DNA of 64,000 nucleotides from Entomobacter blattae (GTDB taxonomy: Bacteria; Pseudomonadota; Alphaproteobacteria; Acetobacterales; Acetobacteraceae). The stretch spans positions 1,405,001-1,469,000 of the forward strand of contig NZ_CP060244.1 of NCBI RefSeq assembly GCF_014672835.1, read 5' to 3'. Below the pieces are notes generated by a model. It saw only the letters and a list, made by a program, of their open reading frames with translations. It made no database searches and had not been told where the DNA came from. The position numbers and the translations under genes are program-made. Below are positions 35,780 to 41,851 of this stretch, piece by piece. How positions within the stretch are numbered: the stretch's first letter is position 1; every line of letters starts with the position of its first letter.

Positions 35780-36004
35780 TCACAGAAAATCTCTTGCCGT
35801 ACGAAGATCGGCATTCTGGGCCTCGATGGGCTGCATGACATCGCCAACATTGAGCTGGTAATTATTCATCTTGTCGGGATCAAGCCACACACGCATAGCA
35901 TATTCGGACGAAAACAGAAGGTAGTCGCCAATACCGTTCAAACGAGTTACGGGATTTTGTACATCCGTAGCCATAAGGTCGCCCAAGGAGGCTATTTTAT
36001 CCTT
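35780..36004 (-). pseudogene. Fragment of an RND (HAE1/AcrB-type) efflux transporter
   Basis: The frame reads DVQNPVTRLNGIGDYLLF, EYAMRVWLDPDKMNNYQLN and DVMQPIEAQNADL in order, which is the first periplasmic PN2/PC region of AcrB/MexF-type pumps (about 65 residues out of more than 1000). It is cut at both ends, reads toward gshB and has no start signal. The rest of the pump is not in the window. Confidence 0.85.
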
Positions 36005-36113
36005 AGGGATCCTTCCACTTTGGGTCCTGTATTGTTTGGCCCTGCCTTGTTCTACACAAATGTTTACACAAATTTAAGGGGTATTTAGGTTTAAGGATTG
36101 TGTAGGTAACAGC

Positions 36114-36299
36114 TACGCCCAGGCGCAAGTCACGGATAATTTCAATACGCTCAAGGGTGTCGATATCAGAATGAAGATATTTGACCTTAATGCCCGCTTC
36201 ATTCATATAATCGGTTAATTCCTCAGCCATTTTTTTGGTAAGTGTGGTCACCAACACACGGCCGCCCTTGGCCACCACCCCACGGCATTCCGCCAGCAG
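36114..36299 (-). pseudogene. Inverted 186-bp copy of an internal part of uvrB
   Basis: The reverse complement of this segment matches uvrB 31350-31535 over 186 bases with only a few mismatches; differences include C/T changes near the GTGGTCACC and CCACCACC blocks. It encodes the segment from [17 protein letters not shown] to IIRDLRLGV (helicase motif region). Flanking sequence on both sides is unrelated to uvrB. High identity points to a recent copy or to gene conversion. Between 36300 and 36530 only an unassigned 29-codon frame and AT-rich sequence remain. Confidence 0.93.
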
Positions 36300-37258: not shown

Positions 37259-37933
37259 ATGTATCGCATGACACAAGAAAATGTTCCACCTTCTCCACGG
37301 GCAGTGCTTGATGCTGCTGCCGTTAAAACCGCGTATAAGCGCTGGGCCAATATGTATGATGCCGTGTTTGGGGGAATCTCCATGTTTGGTCGGAAGCAGG
37401 CCGTGCATGTGACAAACCACCTTCCCGGCAAGACTGTGCTTGAAGTGGGTGTGGGAACAGGCCTGGCGTTACCCTTTTATCGAAAAGATCTTACCATTAC
37501 CGGCATAGACCTTTCAGGAGAAATGCTTGATAAGGCCCGTGAACGGGTAAAAGAGCAGAAACTGGAGAATATTGCAGCCCTCCATGAAATGGATGCCGAA
37601 CAAACCAGCTTTGAAGATAATGCGTTTGATATTGCAGTGGCTATGTTTGTGGCTTCAGTTGTTCCCCATCCGCGCCAGTTGCTGGCTGAACTTAAAAGGG
37701 TGGTTAAACCGGGTGGGCATATTTTGTTTGTTAATCATTTTATTGCCAAGAAAGGGATAAGGCTGTTTATTGAAAAAAATATCGCCTGGGCTTCCCATTC
37801 CCTTGGGTGGCACCCCGATTTTGCCATGGAGTCTCTTTTGCCGGAAGAAGATATGCAAAGGGCTGTTATAAGACCTGTGCCCCCTGCAGGGCTGTTTACC
37901 TTAATAACTTTGGAAAATGTTAAGACCAAATAA
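37259..37933 (+). CDS. pmtA: Phosphatidylethanolamine N-methyltransferase (PmtA type)
   Basis: PmtA methylates phosphatidylethanolamine with S-adenosylmethionine to give phosphatidylcholine. The 224-residue protein has the class I methyltransferase motif (LEVGVGTGLALPFY, about residues 61-74), ITGIDLSGEMLDKARERV, and FVASVVPHPRQLLAELKRV followed by KPGGHILFVNHF. These are typical of Rhodobacter/Acetobacter-type PmtA enzymes. The ATG at 37259 has no strong ribosome binding site; the next Met (37268) is equally possible. Phosphatidylcholine is common in acetic acid bacteria. Confidence 0.85.
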   Translation: MYRMTQENVPPSPRAVLDAAAVKTAYKRWANMYDAVFGGISMFGRKQAVHVTNHLPGKTVLEVGVGTGLALPFYRKDLTITGIDLSGEMLDKARERVKEQKLENIAALHEMDAEQTSFEDNAFDIAVAMFVASVVPHPRQLLAELKRVVKPGGHILFVNHFIAKKGIRLFIEKNIAWASHSLGWHPDFAMESLLPEEDMQRAVIRPVPPAGLFTLITLENVKTK

Positions 37934-38093: not shown

Positions 38094-39533
38094 ATGATGA
38101 AACACGGGTATGCCCCCATAGCTCCAACCTGGTTAGGAAGAGGCAGCTCTTATAACCTTGATGCCAATCTGGGGAGTGCCTTTTTGGTTTTTTCCGTGAT
38201 CTGCGCCTTTCTGGGCGGCAGTCTTCCCCTCATCTTTCATGAGTCTGTGGGGGGTGCCCATTCCCAGGGCGCTCTAGAAAGCCTTATACATTTTTGGCAT
38301 CCCATGGGGTTACTTTATCTTGGTCTGACGCCAGCCTTATTGCAGGGGTTTGGCTTATGGCTCTTGCCTGTATTGGTGCGCAGCCAGAGCATGGCGTTTT
38401 CAGCATTAAACCGGCTTTCTTTTGGTTTTATGCTCGGAAGTGGTGGCGCATATTTTCTCGGTTTTTTCCCCTACTGGGCGTTTGATGCCATAGTGGTCAG
38501 CCTGTTTCTTTGGTCAGCCTCGGTTTTTTGTTACGCTCTGTCGGTTTTTATCACAGTGTTGAATATGCGCCCCTTGGGGATGACCCTTTCTGAAATTCCG
38601 GTTTTTGTATGGGCGCAGTGGCTGGCCTCTCTCGTTTTAGGCATTTCAATCCCTGTCTTTGTGGCCGCCCAAAGCCTTGTGCTTTGGCAAACTCCTTCCC
38701 TAAGCATGGGGATAGATAAGTTTCAGGTGTTGATGAGCCATTATACCTATCCAGTTATGATTTTTCTGCTTTTGCCTGTGTTGGGCATCTCGGTGCATGT
38801 GGTGCAGACATTCTGCGGAGTTCTGAAAGCGCGGGGCGTTATTTTAGCGGCTTTTCTTGTCTTGGCCTTTTTGGGAAGCTTTGGGTGGGTCAACTGGGTT
38901 TTTCATACGGGTTATCTTTCTACAGTGCATAAGGACCTGTTCTTTGCAGCCTCTGGTTATGTCATGCTAGGGGCTACAGGTGCTGTCATTTACGCCATGG
39001 CCTTAACCTTGCTGTGGAAAAAACCTGTTTTGCATGTGCCCTTGCTATGGGTTATTGGCGTTATGGCGATGATTGTCCTCGCATGGCCCATTTTTGTTCT
39101 GGCGGGTAAACAACAACAGGTTCATTCTGTTTTGGCCTACTCCTCTGTTTTTGCAGCCTTTGCAGGGTTTTATTTATGGATTGGAAAAATCAGGGGAAGA
39201 AACTTTTCTGGTCTTTTAGCCATTTTACATTTCAGTCTCACCTTAACGGGCGTTTTGGTGAATTTTGAAGATCAGCTCACGTGTATTACCAACGCTTCTG
39301 CACCTTTTGCGACCCAAACTCCTATGCTCTTTGCAAATTTTTGTATTGGCAAGCTCATATCAGATAGCGCGTTTGGTTTGTCGCTACTGGTCTTTGCCTT
39401 CATTGTCTTGCAATGTATTTGGGGAAAGAAGAGGATAACAGAGAAAAACTATTGGGTTAGTCCTCTTCCTACTGGAGAATGGTGTGTCTCAACACCTTTT
39501 CGTGGGTCCCTACAGGAATGGGATAGGAAATAA
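38094..39533 (+). CDS. Heme-copper oxidase subunit I homolog lacking the heme a3/CuB ligands
   Basis: About 479 residues with about 12 membrane helices. Alignment by eye with CtaD is clear at several blocks: WHPMGLLYLGLTPALLQGFG against the helix II region, SMAFSALNRLSF, TVLNMRPLGMTLSEIPVFVW, and VHSVLAYSSVFAAFAGFYLW against helix X. The two low-spin heme ligands appear kept (H69 and H344). The binuclear-centre ligands do not: the HPEVY block reads YPVMI (Tyr at 219, Ile at 223), the HH pair reads near WVFH without a clear pair, and the heme a3 His is Gln342. The protein is therefore unlikely to reduce oxygen as a normal oxidase. It lies 1 bp before ctaB and looks like a relic or repurposed member of the aa3 oxidase operon. 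My alignment is manual and offsets by one or two residues are possible. Confidence 0.8.
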   Translation: MMKHGYAPIAPTWLGRGSSYNLDANLGSAFLVFSVICAFLGGSLPLIFHESVGGAHSQGALESLIHFWHPMGLLYLGLTPALLQGFGLWLLPVLVRSQSMAFSALNRLSFGFMLGSGGAYFLGFFPYWAFDAIVVSLFLWSASVFCYALSVFITVLNMRPLGMTLSEIPVFVWAQWLASLVLGISIPVFVAAQSLVLWQTPSLSMGIDKFQVLMSHYTYPVMIFLLLPVLGISVHVVQTFCGVLKARGVILAAFLVLAFLGSFGWVNWVFHTGYLSTVHKDLFFAASGYVMLGATGAVIYAMALTLLWKKPVLHVPLLWVIGVMAMIVLAWPIFVLAGKQQQVHSVLAYSSVFAAFAGFYLWIGKIRGRNFSGLLAILHFSLTLTGVLVNFEDQLTCITNASAPFATQTPMLFANFCIGKLISDSAFGLSLLVFAFIVLQCIWGKKRITEKNYWVSPLPTGEWCVSTPFRGSLQEWDRK

Positions 39534-40523
39534 ATGGTCCCTCCTGATAATATCTCGGTGCCGGTTGCAGACTCTCTTCCATTTCGTTCGCGTTTTTCCT
39601 ATGAGCGGGTGGGGTCTGAGGTACGGGACTGGATTGCCTTGCTCAAGCCCCGGGTGATTTCACTTGTGGTCTTTACAGGGGTGATAGGGATTTACCTTGC
39701 TCCTGAACGGCCATCAACAGCCATTTGCCTCATTAGCATTCTGTGTCTTTGTATGGCCTCGGGGGCAGCAGGGGCGATCAATATGTGGTATGATCGAGAT
39801 ATTGATATAAAAATGCGGCGCACTCTAACCCGTCCCTTGCCCTCAGGCCGATTAGGGGTGGAAGATACCCTGGTTTATGGGTGTGTTCTCTCGGTTTTTT
39901 CTGTTCTGCTCATGTGGGTTGCTACTAACCTATGGGCTGCAGGGTTGCTGGCTTTTTCCATATTTTTTTATACGGTCATTTATACAAGCTGGCTTAAACG
40001 GAGCACCCCACAAAATATTGTTATTGGGGGGGCAGCAGGGGCATTCCCTCCTCTGATTGGCTGGGTCGCGGCTTGTGGGCAGATAAGTTGGTTTCCTGTT
40101 ATTTTATTTGCCATTATCTTTTTATGGACTCCCCCCCATTTTTGGTCTCTGTCTTTATATGCTTGTAAAGACTATACCCGTGCTGGTGTGCCCATGTTGC
40201 CTGTGGTCAGGGGGCAAAGATATACCCGGTTGTCTATTTTAGCCTATACCTTTCTTTTATTGGGTGTAACCCTTATTCCTGCCTTTTTGGGGCAGGCGGG
40301 GACTCTTTATTTTTTCTCTGCCCTTATTCTGGGCCTTGGTTTTATAGGCCATGCCCTAAGGCTGGTGAGGGATGGAAAAGGGCCTGAAGGCCTCAGCCAT
40401 ACGGGGGATAAACCCGCGAGAAAGGCTTTTCGGTACTCATTATTTTATCTTTTTATGTTGTTTGTCAGCTTGGTGGGAGATCATTTCTGGTTTCTGACAT
40501 TAGGCTTGTCAAAGCTCTTCTAA
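39534..40523 (+). CDS. ctaB: Protoheme IX farnesyltransferase (heme O synthase)
   Basis: CtaB/CyoE attaches a farnesyl group to heme B to make heme O, which the cytochrome bo3 quinol oxidase of acetic acid bacteria needs. The 329-residue membrane protein has two Asp-rich prenyltransferase motifs: NMWYDRDIDIKMRRTLTRP (about residues 82-100) and YACKDYTRAGVPMLPVV (about 206-222). The start is 1 base after the stop of the CtaD-like gene, and a coxF-like gene follows. A degenerate copy of the 5' part occurs at 41331-41502. Confidence 0.94.
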   Translation: MVPPDNISVPVADSLPFRSRFSYERVGSEVRDWIALLKPRVISLVVFTGVIGIYLAPERPSTAICLISILCLCMASGAAGAINMWYDRDIDIKMRRTLTRPLPSGRLGVEDTLVYGCVLSVFSVLLMWVATNLWAAGLLAFSIFFYTVIYTSWLKRSTPQNIVIGGAAGAFPPLIGWVAACGQISWFPVILFAIIFLWTPPHFWSLSLYACKDYTRAGVPMLPVVRGQRYTRLSILAYTFLLLGVTLIPAFLGQAGTLYFFSALILGLGFIGHALRLVRDGKGPEGLSHTGDKPARKAFRYSLFYLFMLFVSLVGDHFWFLTLGLSKLF

Positions 40524-40538
40524 CTAAGGCTAGATGTT

Positions 40539-40679
40539 GTGGAAGATAAAAATCTCATACTGACTCCTCAGGAGCAGGCAGAATATGCCATACGGCGAAA
40601 AAGACGCAGCTGGATGTTGGCCTTTGTTTATTGTTTTATTGCAGCGGTGTTTTTTATCATGGCTCTTGTTAAGCTTTAG
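40539..40679 (+). CDS. CoxF-like small membrane protein (46 residues)
   Basis: From the GTG at 40539 the frame gives 46 residues: a polar start with LTPQEQAEYAIRRKRRSW and one membrane helix ending MALVKL. The pattern (LTPEQ, Arg-rich stretch, single helix, TIVKL-like end) matches CoxF/small cytochrome oxidase accessory proteins found right after ctaB in alphaproteobacterial cta operons. It starts 15 bases after the ctaB stop. Its presence supports the view that this cluster is the remains of ctaD-ctaB-coxF. The start codon is uncertain. Confidence 0.6.
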   Translation: MEDKNLILTPQEQAEYAIRRKRRSWMLAFVYCFIAAVFFIMALVKL

Positions 40680-40742: not shown

Positions 40743-41300
40743 TTAAACAGGGGATAGCGCCAATTCTTCTATGAGTTTAAGGGCTTCTTCTTGTGGGTTA
40801 AGCAAGGTTGGGTCTCTTGAGAAGTTTCCGGTAATTTGGCCCTGCTGTTGGTTGATATGTTGTTGGGTGCGAAAATCCTTACGGGCTTTTTCTGTTCGTC
40901 TTCCCTGGCGGATCAGTAAGCCTGCCAAGACAATGGCCAGGCTTACTGACCAGACCTACAATGACCAACGAAAACAGAAAATTCTACTTTTTATCGGAAG
41001 CTGTAAAGTCGGAGAAGTCATCTTTAGGCACCACCAACAGCAAAATCCACCCTTGCGTATCAACCCTTGGGTATCAGAGGGAAGGGCCGCTGCAATCATA
41101 ATATAACGCTTATCGTCTTCCTCTCCTGAACGCTCTCATCCTTTAAAACACCACCCCATTTCATTAAAAAATTCCTGTAAGATCTGTGCCTTGAGTGAAT
41201 AATATTTTGAACGAGTATCCACTTTTTTAATCTCGCGCACCCCATAATTATTCACACGAAAATCATCGTAAGCGCGCATTAACACTGGAGTATGTTACCG
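40743..41300 (-). pseudogene. Decayed coding remnant(s), family not recognised
   Basis: Several minus-strand pieces read as protein but are broken. Near 41125-41290: YDDFRVNNYGVREIKKVD, SKYYSLKAQILQEFFNEMGW, then a stop and a further KRYIMIAAALPSDTQG. Within 40993-41050 an adjoining frame gives LLLVVPKDDFSDFTASDKK then a stop, with a 13-base duplication (GATACCCAAGGGTT/GATACGCAAGGGTGG) breaking the frame. A last piece (40743-40928) encodes a membrane helix (SLAIVLAGLLI) and a Gln-rich tail ending at 40743, with an upstream stop. The order suggests one or two decayed genes whose product I cannot name. Confidence 0.5.
41121..41221 (-). repeat. Left arm of a roughly 100-bp inverted repeat
   Basis: The reverse complement matches 41564-41668 at about 90 percent identity, with a 40-base identical core around AGATCTTACAGGAATTTTTT. 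The arms flank the ctaB fragment. The left arm lies in the decayed coding sequence at 40743-41300, so the right arm is a copied piece of it. Confidence 0.88.
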
Positions 41301-41330
41301 TATCGGTACTGTATTCGGTACCGTATTGGT

Positions 41331-41502
41331 GGGGCCTGAGTTACGGGAGTGGATTGCCTTGCTCAAGCCCCGTGTGATTTCGCTTGTGGTTTTTACAGGG
41401 GCTAATAGGGATTGACTTTGCCCTTGAGGCCATCAACGGCCCTTTGCCTGATTAGTCTCCTGTATCTTTGTATGGCTTCTCGGGGGCAGTAGGGGCAATC
41501 AA
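41331..41502 (+). pseudogene. Degenerate 5' copy of ctaB
   Basis: This 172-base stretch matches ctaB 39611-39784 at roughly 85 percent identity (both contain GGATTGCCTTGCTCAAGCCCC and TTTGTATGG). Indels and a stop (near 41405) break the frame. It has no start and lies between the inverted-repeat arms. Three degenerate 11-12-base units (TACCGTATCGG type) come directly before it. It is a fragment, not a second heme O synthase. Confidence 0.9.
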
Positions 41503-41563
41503 TAAATATAATGACGGAATGAATGAGAGACCTCCTCATCAGTGGAGGGGTCCTATGGAGAGT

Positions 41564-41668
41564 GATGGGTATTCGTTTAAGATATTATTCGCTCAAGGCA
41601 CCAGATCTTACAGGAATTTTTTAATGAAATGGGGTGGTGTTTTAAAGGGTGAGAGCATTCTGGAGAGG
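41564..41668 (+). repeat. Right arm of the inverted repeat
   Basis: This is the partner of 41121-41221. On the plus strand it contains LKAPDLTGIF-type reading frame remains that stop quickly. With the left arm it can form a large hairpin around about 340 bases that include the ctaB fragment. Confidence 0.88.
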
Positions 41669-41851
41669 TAAAGAACCTTAATTGCCCCTAAAGAATGAAC
41701 CTGTTGTTGTTTACCTGCCAAAACAAAAATGGGCCATACGAGGACAATCATCGCCATTATGAACTGCTCCCCCTATATGAGCTGCCTCTATATGAACTGA
41801 AGGCAACCCGCCATTGCCCGTTATTGTGAGATCGCCTAAAGTTCCCCTTTC

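Follow-up and report, generated by a model that had tools for sequence, protein, structure and literature searches.

A CtaD-like protein encoded beside ctaB in Entomobacter blattae and other Acetobacteraceae has lost the oxygen-reducing centre and keeps a predicted low-spin heme site

We analyzed a stretch of 64,000 nucleotides of Entomobacter blattae DNA (contig NZ_CP060244.1, positions 1,405,001 to 1,469,000; hereafter the window), which lies within a single 2.70-Mb contig of this genome (G000 in our set) and carries a gene for a protein related to CtaD, the subunit I of aa3 cytochrome c oxidase. As presented in Table 1, this CtaD-like gene is followed by ctaB, the product of which passes the NCBIfam cut-off for heme O synthase (317.8 bits against 210.3), and by a small open reading frame (ORF). 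For the latter we keep the name CoxF-like from the initial annotation of the window; scans of Pfam and NCBIfam gave no match of this ORF to any curated family. In the gene order the initial annotation had seen a mirror of the cta operon, which agrees with the intact order of ctaB, CoxF-like ORF and CtaG gene in two other genomes (G037 and G030), and it had proposed that ctaB is retained, as the score of its product confirms. The CtaD-like gene is also conserved in other acetic acid bacteria, a point which that annotation had raised: a degenerate CtaD-like open frame was observed directly upstream of ctaB in 54 of the 58 genomes with a true ctaB, belonging to 19 genera of the Acetobacteraceae.

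Table 1. Features of the locus, in positions of the window.
Feature	Position	Strand	Description
CtaD-like gene	38094..39533	+	479 amino acids, no internal stop, 12 long predicted helices, H69 and H344 kept, CuB/heme a3 ligands lost
ctaB, heme O synthase	39534..40523	+	329 amino acids; first base directly after the CtaD-like stop codon
CoxF-like small ORF	40539..40679	+	46 amino acids, GTG start; family defined in the present analysis
Methyltransferase gene	37259..37933	+	Constant neighbour upstream of the CtaD-like gene
Debris: incomplete, diverged copy of the ctaB 5' region (source 39608-39783)	41328..41504	+	Outside the working unit
Debris: inverted fragment copy of the CtaD-like gene (source 39063-39128)	41692..41757	-	

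The window gene is derived from a CtaD. Its product matched the Pfam COX1 family with 77.7 bits (cut-off 34.8), and its best solved relatives by sequence in a phmmer search were the CtaD proteins of Paracoccus (E 5e-23) and Rhodobacter (E 4e-22). It missed the equivalog cut-off of the NCBIfam CtaD model (98.9 against 670.75 bits), and it is shorter than the normal CtaDs of the fetched loci, which have 508-558 amino acids. The AlphaFold2 model (predicted local distance difference test, pLDDT, 80.2; predicted template modelling score, pTM, 0.85) contained twelve long helices and could be overlaid on Rhodobacter CtaD (3fye_C) with a Z of 40.0 and a root mean square deviation of 2.6 over 435 residues (Foldseek TM 0.80), and on Paracoccus CtaD with a Z of 40. 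This model leans to the normal fold, the majority of its 29 aligned input rows (the window protein, 4 degenerate and 24 normal CtaDs) being normal. The homology and the predicted COX1 fold of 12 helices are those of an A-family subunit I.

We then compared the cofactor ligands, naming the residues of normal CtaDs in the Paracoccus numbering and placing them by motif. In the family alignments, the window protein retains both ligands of the low-spin heme, H69 and H344. The heme a3 His is replaced by Q342, the His and the cross-linked Tyr of the HPEVY motif by Y219 and I223, and the HH pair by N267/W268. In addition, the Mg-site stretch preceding H344 is deleted and the K-channel Lys is lost. The initial annotation had proposed a CtaD-like protein with low-spin ligands and without CuB/heme a3 ligands, and the family alignments point to the same residues. 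The assignment of N267/W268 comes from gap-free alignments anchored on W265, which is invariant in 54/54 proteins; against it, the phmmer alignment introduces a gap of two residues and sets F270/H271 opposite the HH pair, so that one CuB His is arguable there. As aligned, the CuB His triad, the cross-linked Tyr and the heme a3 His of an A-family subunit I are missing, and H69/H344, found in all 54 degenerate members, form a predicted bis-His low-spin heme site. Lost ligands hidden elsewhere in the protein were ruled out: besides these two, no His column is invariant and the next best are kept in 46/54 and 20/54. The missing ligands also rule out an active oxidase. A nitric oxide (NO) reductase of the NorB type was discarded as well, since its high-spin heme and second-metal His positions are substituted and no such reductase model was among the NCBIfam matches.

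The two heme ligands stand out in a group of very diverse sequences. Pairwise identity among the 54 degenerate proteins ranges from 15 to 98% with a median of 26%, and exactly four columns of their alignment are invariant (H69, W173, W265 and H344). All four were again invariant in the separate alignment used for the loop measurements described below, and, together with M1 and G231, in a further one of 27 diverse members. The 20 normal CtaDs have 202 invariant columns, 12 of them His; four of these 202 stay invariant in the 54 degenerate proteins, and among the 12 His only the two low-spin ligands are kept 54/54, the other ten being kept in 0-20 of 54. The chance that four random survivors of the 202 would include both low-spin ligands is 3e-4, a rough value that ignores unequal constraint. 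We also observed that W173 and W265 show the same invariance as the heme ligands across the 54 degenerate proteins and the 20 normal CtaDs.

Selection on the gene was analyzed by the ratio of nonsynonymous to synonymous substitution rates (dN/dS), using the Nei-Gojobori method without a codon-bias model on the 46 pairs that passed a filter for similarity of their ctaB genes. The ratio of the CtaD-like gene was below 1 in 46/46 pairs. For the 17 pairs whose proteins are at least 75% identical, it was 0.074-0.226, compared to 0.006-0.105 for the matched ctaB part, and in 27 of the 46 pairs it exceeded 0.2, reaching 0.69, at dS values of 0.32 to 1.80. The CtaD-like gene is constrained, though less than ctaB in each pair. 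The word relic, used for the operon in the initial annotation, is contradicted by these ratios and by the 54 open frames upstream of ctaB, which bear out another of its proposals, that the open frame is kept for another role. Neutral decay in close relatives, which it had named as a refutation, does not fit the result for the wider family, obtained from genera other than that of the window.

The loops between the helices were measured with helix ends taken from the model and with the inside and outside of the oxidase topology. The five cytoplasmic loops of the degenerate proteins have the same median lengths as those of normal CtaDs (17, 23, 18, 17 and 19 residues). Five of the six periplasmic loops are shorter, with medians going from 24 to 16.5 for loop I-II, 34 to 11 for III-IV, 25 to 14 for V-VI, 27 to 14 for IX-X and 27 to 5 for XI-XII; loop VII-VIII is about unchanged (17 to 16.5), and the XI-XII loop of the window protein itself still has 27 residues. 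Agreement with the canonical residue was 0.40 in the cytoplasmic loops against 0.18 in the periplasmic ones. In oxidases, the periplasmic cap contacts subunit II as well as the Mg site and the heme propionates, and seats electron entry. As far as the modelled helix ends indicate, this cap is lost from the degenerate proteins.

The spread of the gene was examined by a search of 397 genomes of the family, 340 of which gave a match. The top-ranking rows of this search were short CtaD-like frames from four genera, and the first normal CtaD came at row 18. A profile built from 25 of the short sequences (A1) reached more distant members in further genera. We then asked for ctaB in 63 genomes chosen by hand from this search, which are not a random sample: a true ctaB, above the cut-off, was found in 58 of them, and the five without one gave no COX1-family match with profile A1 or the wider profile A3. 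Of the 54 genomes listed in the A1 search, seven with broken or other matches (G007, G012, G018, G025, G063, G104 and G195) were left out of the ctaB step; with profile A3, several of them carry CtaD-type pieces on short contigs. Among the 58 ctaB neighbourhoods (57 fetched and the window), a CtaD-like frame lay upstream in 55. The 54 degenerate frames end 48-105 bases before the ctaB match, and the upstream gene of G037 is a normal CtaD truncated by the contig start. In G009 and G030, ctaB lies at a contig end and its upstream neighbour is not judgeable; G009 has a CtaD-type piece of 341 amino acids at another contig end. G030 has ctaB and an adjoining CtaG gene yet no COX1-family match, so that a gene missing from a draft genome may lie in an assembly gap. 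The degenerate gene of G031, G045, G116 and G258 escaped profile A1, and the wider profiles, A3 included, recovered all four; absence by A1 alone is therefore weak. The profile used for the frames upstream of ctaB was built without L126 (obtained in the wrong frame), L138, L141 and L144 (the last three being other oxidases) and without the normal L022, L028 and L030, and the sequence L021 of G041, with its uncertain start, was trimmed to its last 445 amino acids for alignment, dN/dS and tree. In this tree, a quick one with warnings for long branches and composition, a single branch separates the 54 degenerate proteins from the 20 normal CtaDs (SH-aLRT, the Shimodaira-Hasegawa-like approximate likelihood ratio test, 99). 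By this split from the normal CtaDs and by gene order, the window gene is placed in the group of the Acetobacter 'deranged COX1-like' gene. The methyltransferase gene upstream was matched in 55 of the 58 neighbourhoods, the window counted.

The CoxF-like ORF was found after ctaB in 57 of the 58 neighbourhoods and in none of 331 reverse-strand control peptides, using a profile of nine seed sequences, the window's own ORF among them. The sole miss is G001, which is also the one neighbourhood seen without a CtaD-like gene: glutathione synthetase, methyltransferase, ctaB, Tim44-like and PmbA genes follow there in the order of the window, with neither the CtaD-like nor the CoxF-like gene between them, and in the rest of that genome the only frames matched by profile A3 have 984 and 676 amino acids. 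Functionally, the CoxF-like protein may go with the CtaD fold and not with ctaB.

Regarding the heme that the site might hold, a match to the heme A synthase CtaA was obtained in 31 of the 54 genomes, that of the window among them, and the other 23, from 12 genera, gave none. A need for heme A as a general rule was therefore rejected, and the site, if filled, would as a rule hold heme b or o; this makes unlikely, as a general role, the a-type cytochrome that the initial annotation had considered. CtaG/Cox11 was matched in none of the 54 genomes, and in the window's genome neither CtaG/Cox11 nor Surf1 gave a match. The search for full cytochrome c oxidase subunits in that genome, a further check named in the initial annotation, gave one match each for subunits II and III, both inside the cyo cluster, and CyoB scores above its NCBIfam cut-off. 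For E. blattae, we consequently rejected a place of the CtaD-like protein in a complete cytochrome c oxidase. A CoxB match above the cut-off was present elsewhere in 10 of the 54 genomes, so that the CtaD-like gene is kept with or without one. The same E. blattae genome holds another COX1-family ORF of 769 amino acids (L002, C1:1244337-1245689), which by eye reads like a quinol NO reductase (qNOR) and has no NCBIfam match.

Outside these genes, the stretch 40758-41850, which separates the Tim44-like gene from the CoxF-like ORF, contains debris, including a 100-base inverted repeat, and part of it recurs as an 85% copy at C1:1282183-1282511 of the same genome. In addition, residues 2-54 of a short ORF on the reverse strand (36003-36278) match the middle of UvrB (profile positions 441-493 of 653), and this ORF looks like an isolated uvrB fragment.

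The loss of the oxygen-reducing centre with two His kept suggests a new job rather than decay. We propose, at slightly under an even chance, that the CtaD-like protein is a single-heme partner of the heme O synthase; its fold, ligands, linkage, selection and independence from CtaA were computed, and from these we infer the heme binding and the partnership. A partner of CtaB that binds heme is proposed because of the place beside ctaB, the bis-His site, the cytoplasmic loop lengths and the fact that neither heme A nor CtaG nor a cytochrome c oxidase is required. The protein would be a converted oxidase subunit, a membrane protein of 12 helices holding between its helices II and X one bis-His low-spin heme (b or o), with no O2-reducing centre and no electron-entry site from a CuA subunit. 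Together with CtaB and the CoxF-like protein it would act as a heme O unit. By analogy with the link of Cox1 and Cox10 in yeast, it might dock on CtaB from its cytoplasmic side, could help CtaB to assemble or stay active, and would take up heme for transfer to cytochrome bo3/ba3. More specifically, and with clearly less confidence, it may be a pseudo-oxidase dedicated to heme O handling: its one heme site would accept the heme O made by CtaB and, along with the CoxF-like protein, it would deliver this heme to the bo3/ba3 quinol oxidase.

Several observations weigh against a heme-binding partner of CtaB. The CtaD-like gene evolves faster than ctaB in 46/46 pairs, and ctaB is kept in G001 without the CtaD-like and CoxF-like genes, which are both dispensable there. 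Ancestral gene order might by itself explain the linkage, since two upstream genes, for the methyltransferase and glutathione synthetase, are just as constant as neighbours. What the cytoplasmic loops retain is length more than sequence, with a mean majority frequency of 0.36 compared to 0.32 in periplasmic loops and 0.39-0.49 in helix thirds, and the most distant members do not have the C-terminal NYWG...EW motif seen in closer ones. Finally, R54, R473 and R474, which contact the heme a side chains in normal CtaDs (the first touching the formyl group), are kept in 6/54, 0/54 and 0/54, so that the pocket, if used, is changed.

Other roles would account for part of these data. The linkage with ctaB and the kept cytoplasmic loop lengths would also be expected of a heme-free scaffold whose sole function is to stabilise CtaB in the membrane, a role proposed in the literature for the Acetobacter protein (PMC10715153); such a scaffold gives no evident reason to keep exactly two axial His in 54/54 proteins when ten others are kept in 0-20, and we consider it unlikely. 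The kept bis-His site, and the dispensability of heme A in 23/54 genomes, could equally belong to an independent membrane cytochrome b, whose heme would pass electrons from quinol or a periplasmic donor to another partner without any role in heme O. This appears rather improbable: the periplasmic loops, the seat of electron entry in oxidases, are cut back, no redox partner was found among the neighbours compared (ctaB, CoxF-like, methyltransferase, gshB, Tim44-like and PmbA), and the genomes without a true ctaB gave no COX1-family match. One heme site without a catalytic centre, linked to the heme O synthase gene, would also suit a heme or redox sensor controlling CtaB or the oxidase supply, but neither the protein nor the neighbours compared showed a sensor or regulator domain, and such a sensor is quite improbable. 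As to a decaying relic of a lost aa3 oxidase, held only by its operon position, the lost catalytic ligands, the evolution faster than that of ctaB, the absence of the gene from the G001 locus and a match in G060 that extends about 11 codons beyond the stop codon (profile A1) are in its favour. So is the published view of Acetobacter in Matsutani 2014, in which ctaA and ctaB reportedly work as heme A and O synthases and ctaD is said to be dead through accumulated mutations. Against it stand open frames in 54 genomes of 19 genera, a dN/dS under 1 in all 46 pairs and four invariant columns at 26% median identity, and a relic is very improbable.

The gene itself was already known; the conserved heme site, the selection pattern, the loop pattern and the spread are added here. 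In print, Acetobacter is described as having a 'deranged COX1-like' gene beside ctaB that lacks all conserved cofactor-binding residues (PMC10715153), and A. pasteurianus as having ctaB and ctaD under the neighbouring locus tags APT_01775 and APT_01774 (PMC5158111). The gene pair is the same as here and the catalytic ligands are likewise lost; compared with the printed passages, we observed low-spin ligands kept 54/54, a gene under purifying selection and its independence from heme A synthase, and whereas these passages speak of Acetobacter, the degenerate gene occurs here in 19 genera. In a literature search, the retained low-spin ligands were mentioned in none of the titles and abstracts, full texts having been covered for some of the papers, and searches on essentiality of the gene and on oxidase homologues without a binuclear centre yielded nothing useful. 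With the CtaD/COX1 of aa3 oxidase, the degenerate form shares the predicted 12-helix fold and the low-spin heme ligands; unlike it, it has lost the CuB His, the cross-linked Tyr, the heme a3 His, the K-channel Lys and the Mg site, has shortened periplasmic loops and comes without CtaG. In yeast, multimerization of the heme O synthase Cox10 depends on Cox1 (PMC7140478). In both cases the state of the heme O synthase is tied to a subunit I polypeptide, so far as an analogy only: the yeast polypeptide is the oxidase subunit proper in the course of assembly, whereas the one here would be a dedicated non-oxidase. Two further papers state that no heme O synthase gene stands beside the cyo operons of Asaia (PMC4596401) and that no specific assembly protein is known for E. 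coli bo3 apart from heme O synthase (PMC9145763).

The presence of the low-spin ligands in these proteins corrects the printed statement that such genes lack all cofactor ligands. The delivery of heme O or A from its synthase into the terminal oxidase is called open in a review of mitochondrial heme and in a paper on assembly in Paracoccus. If our proposal is true, bacteria across a family would carry, coupled to their heme O synthase gene, what looks like the heme-accepting half of an oxidase with its catalytic half missing; the step of heme delivery would thereby become testable, with G001, a natural deletion, usable as control.

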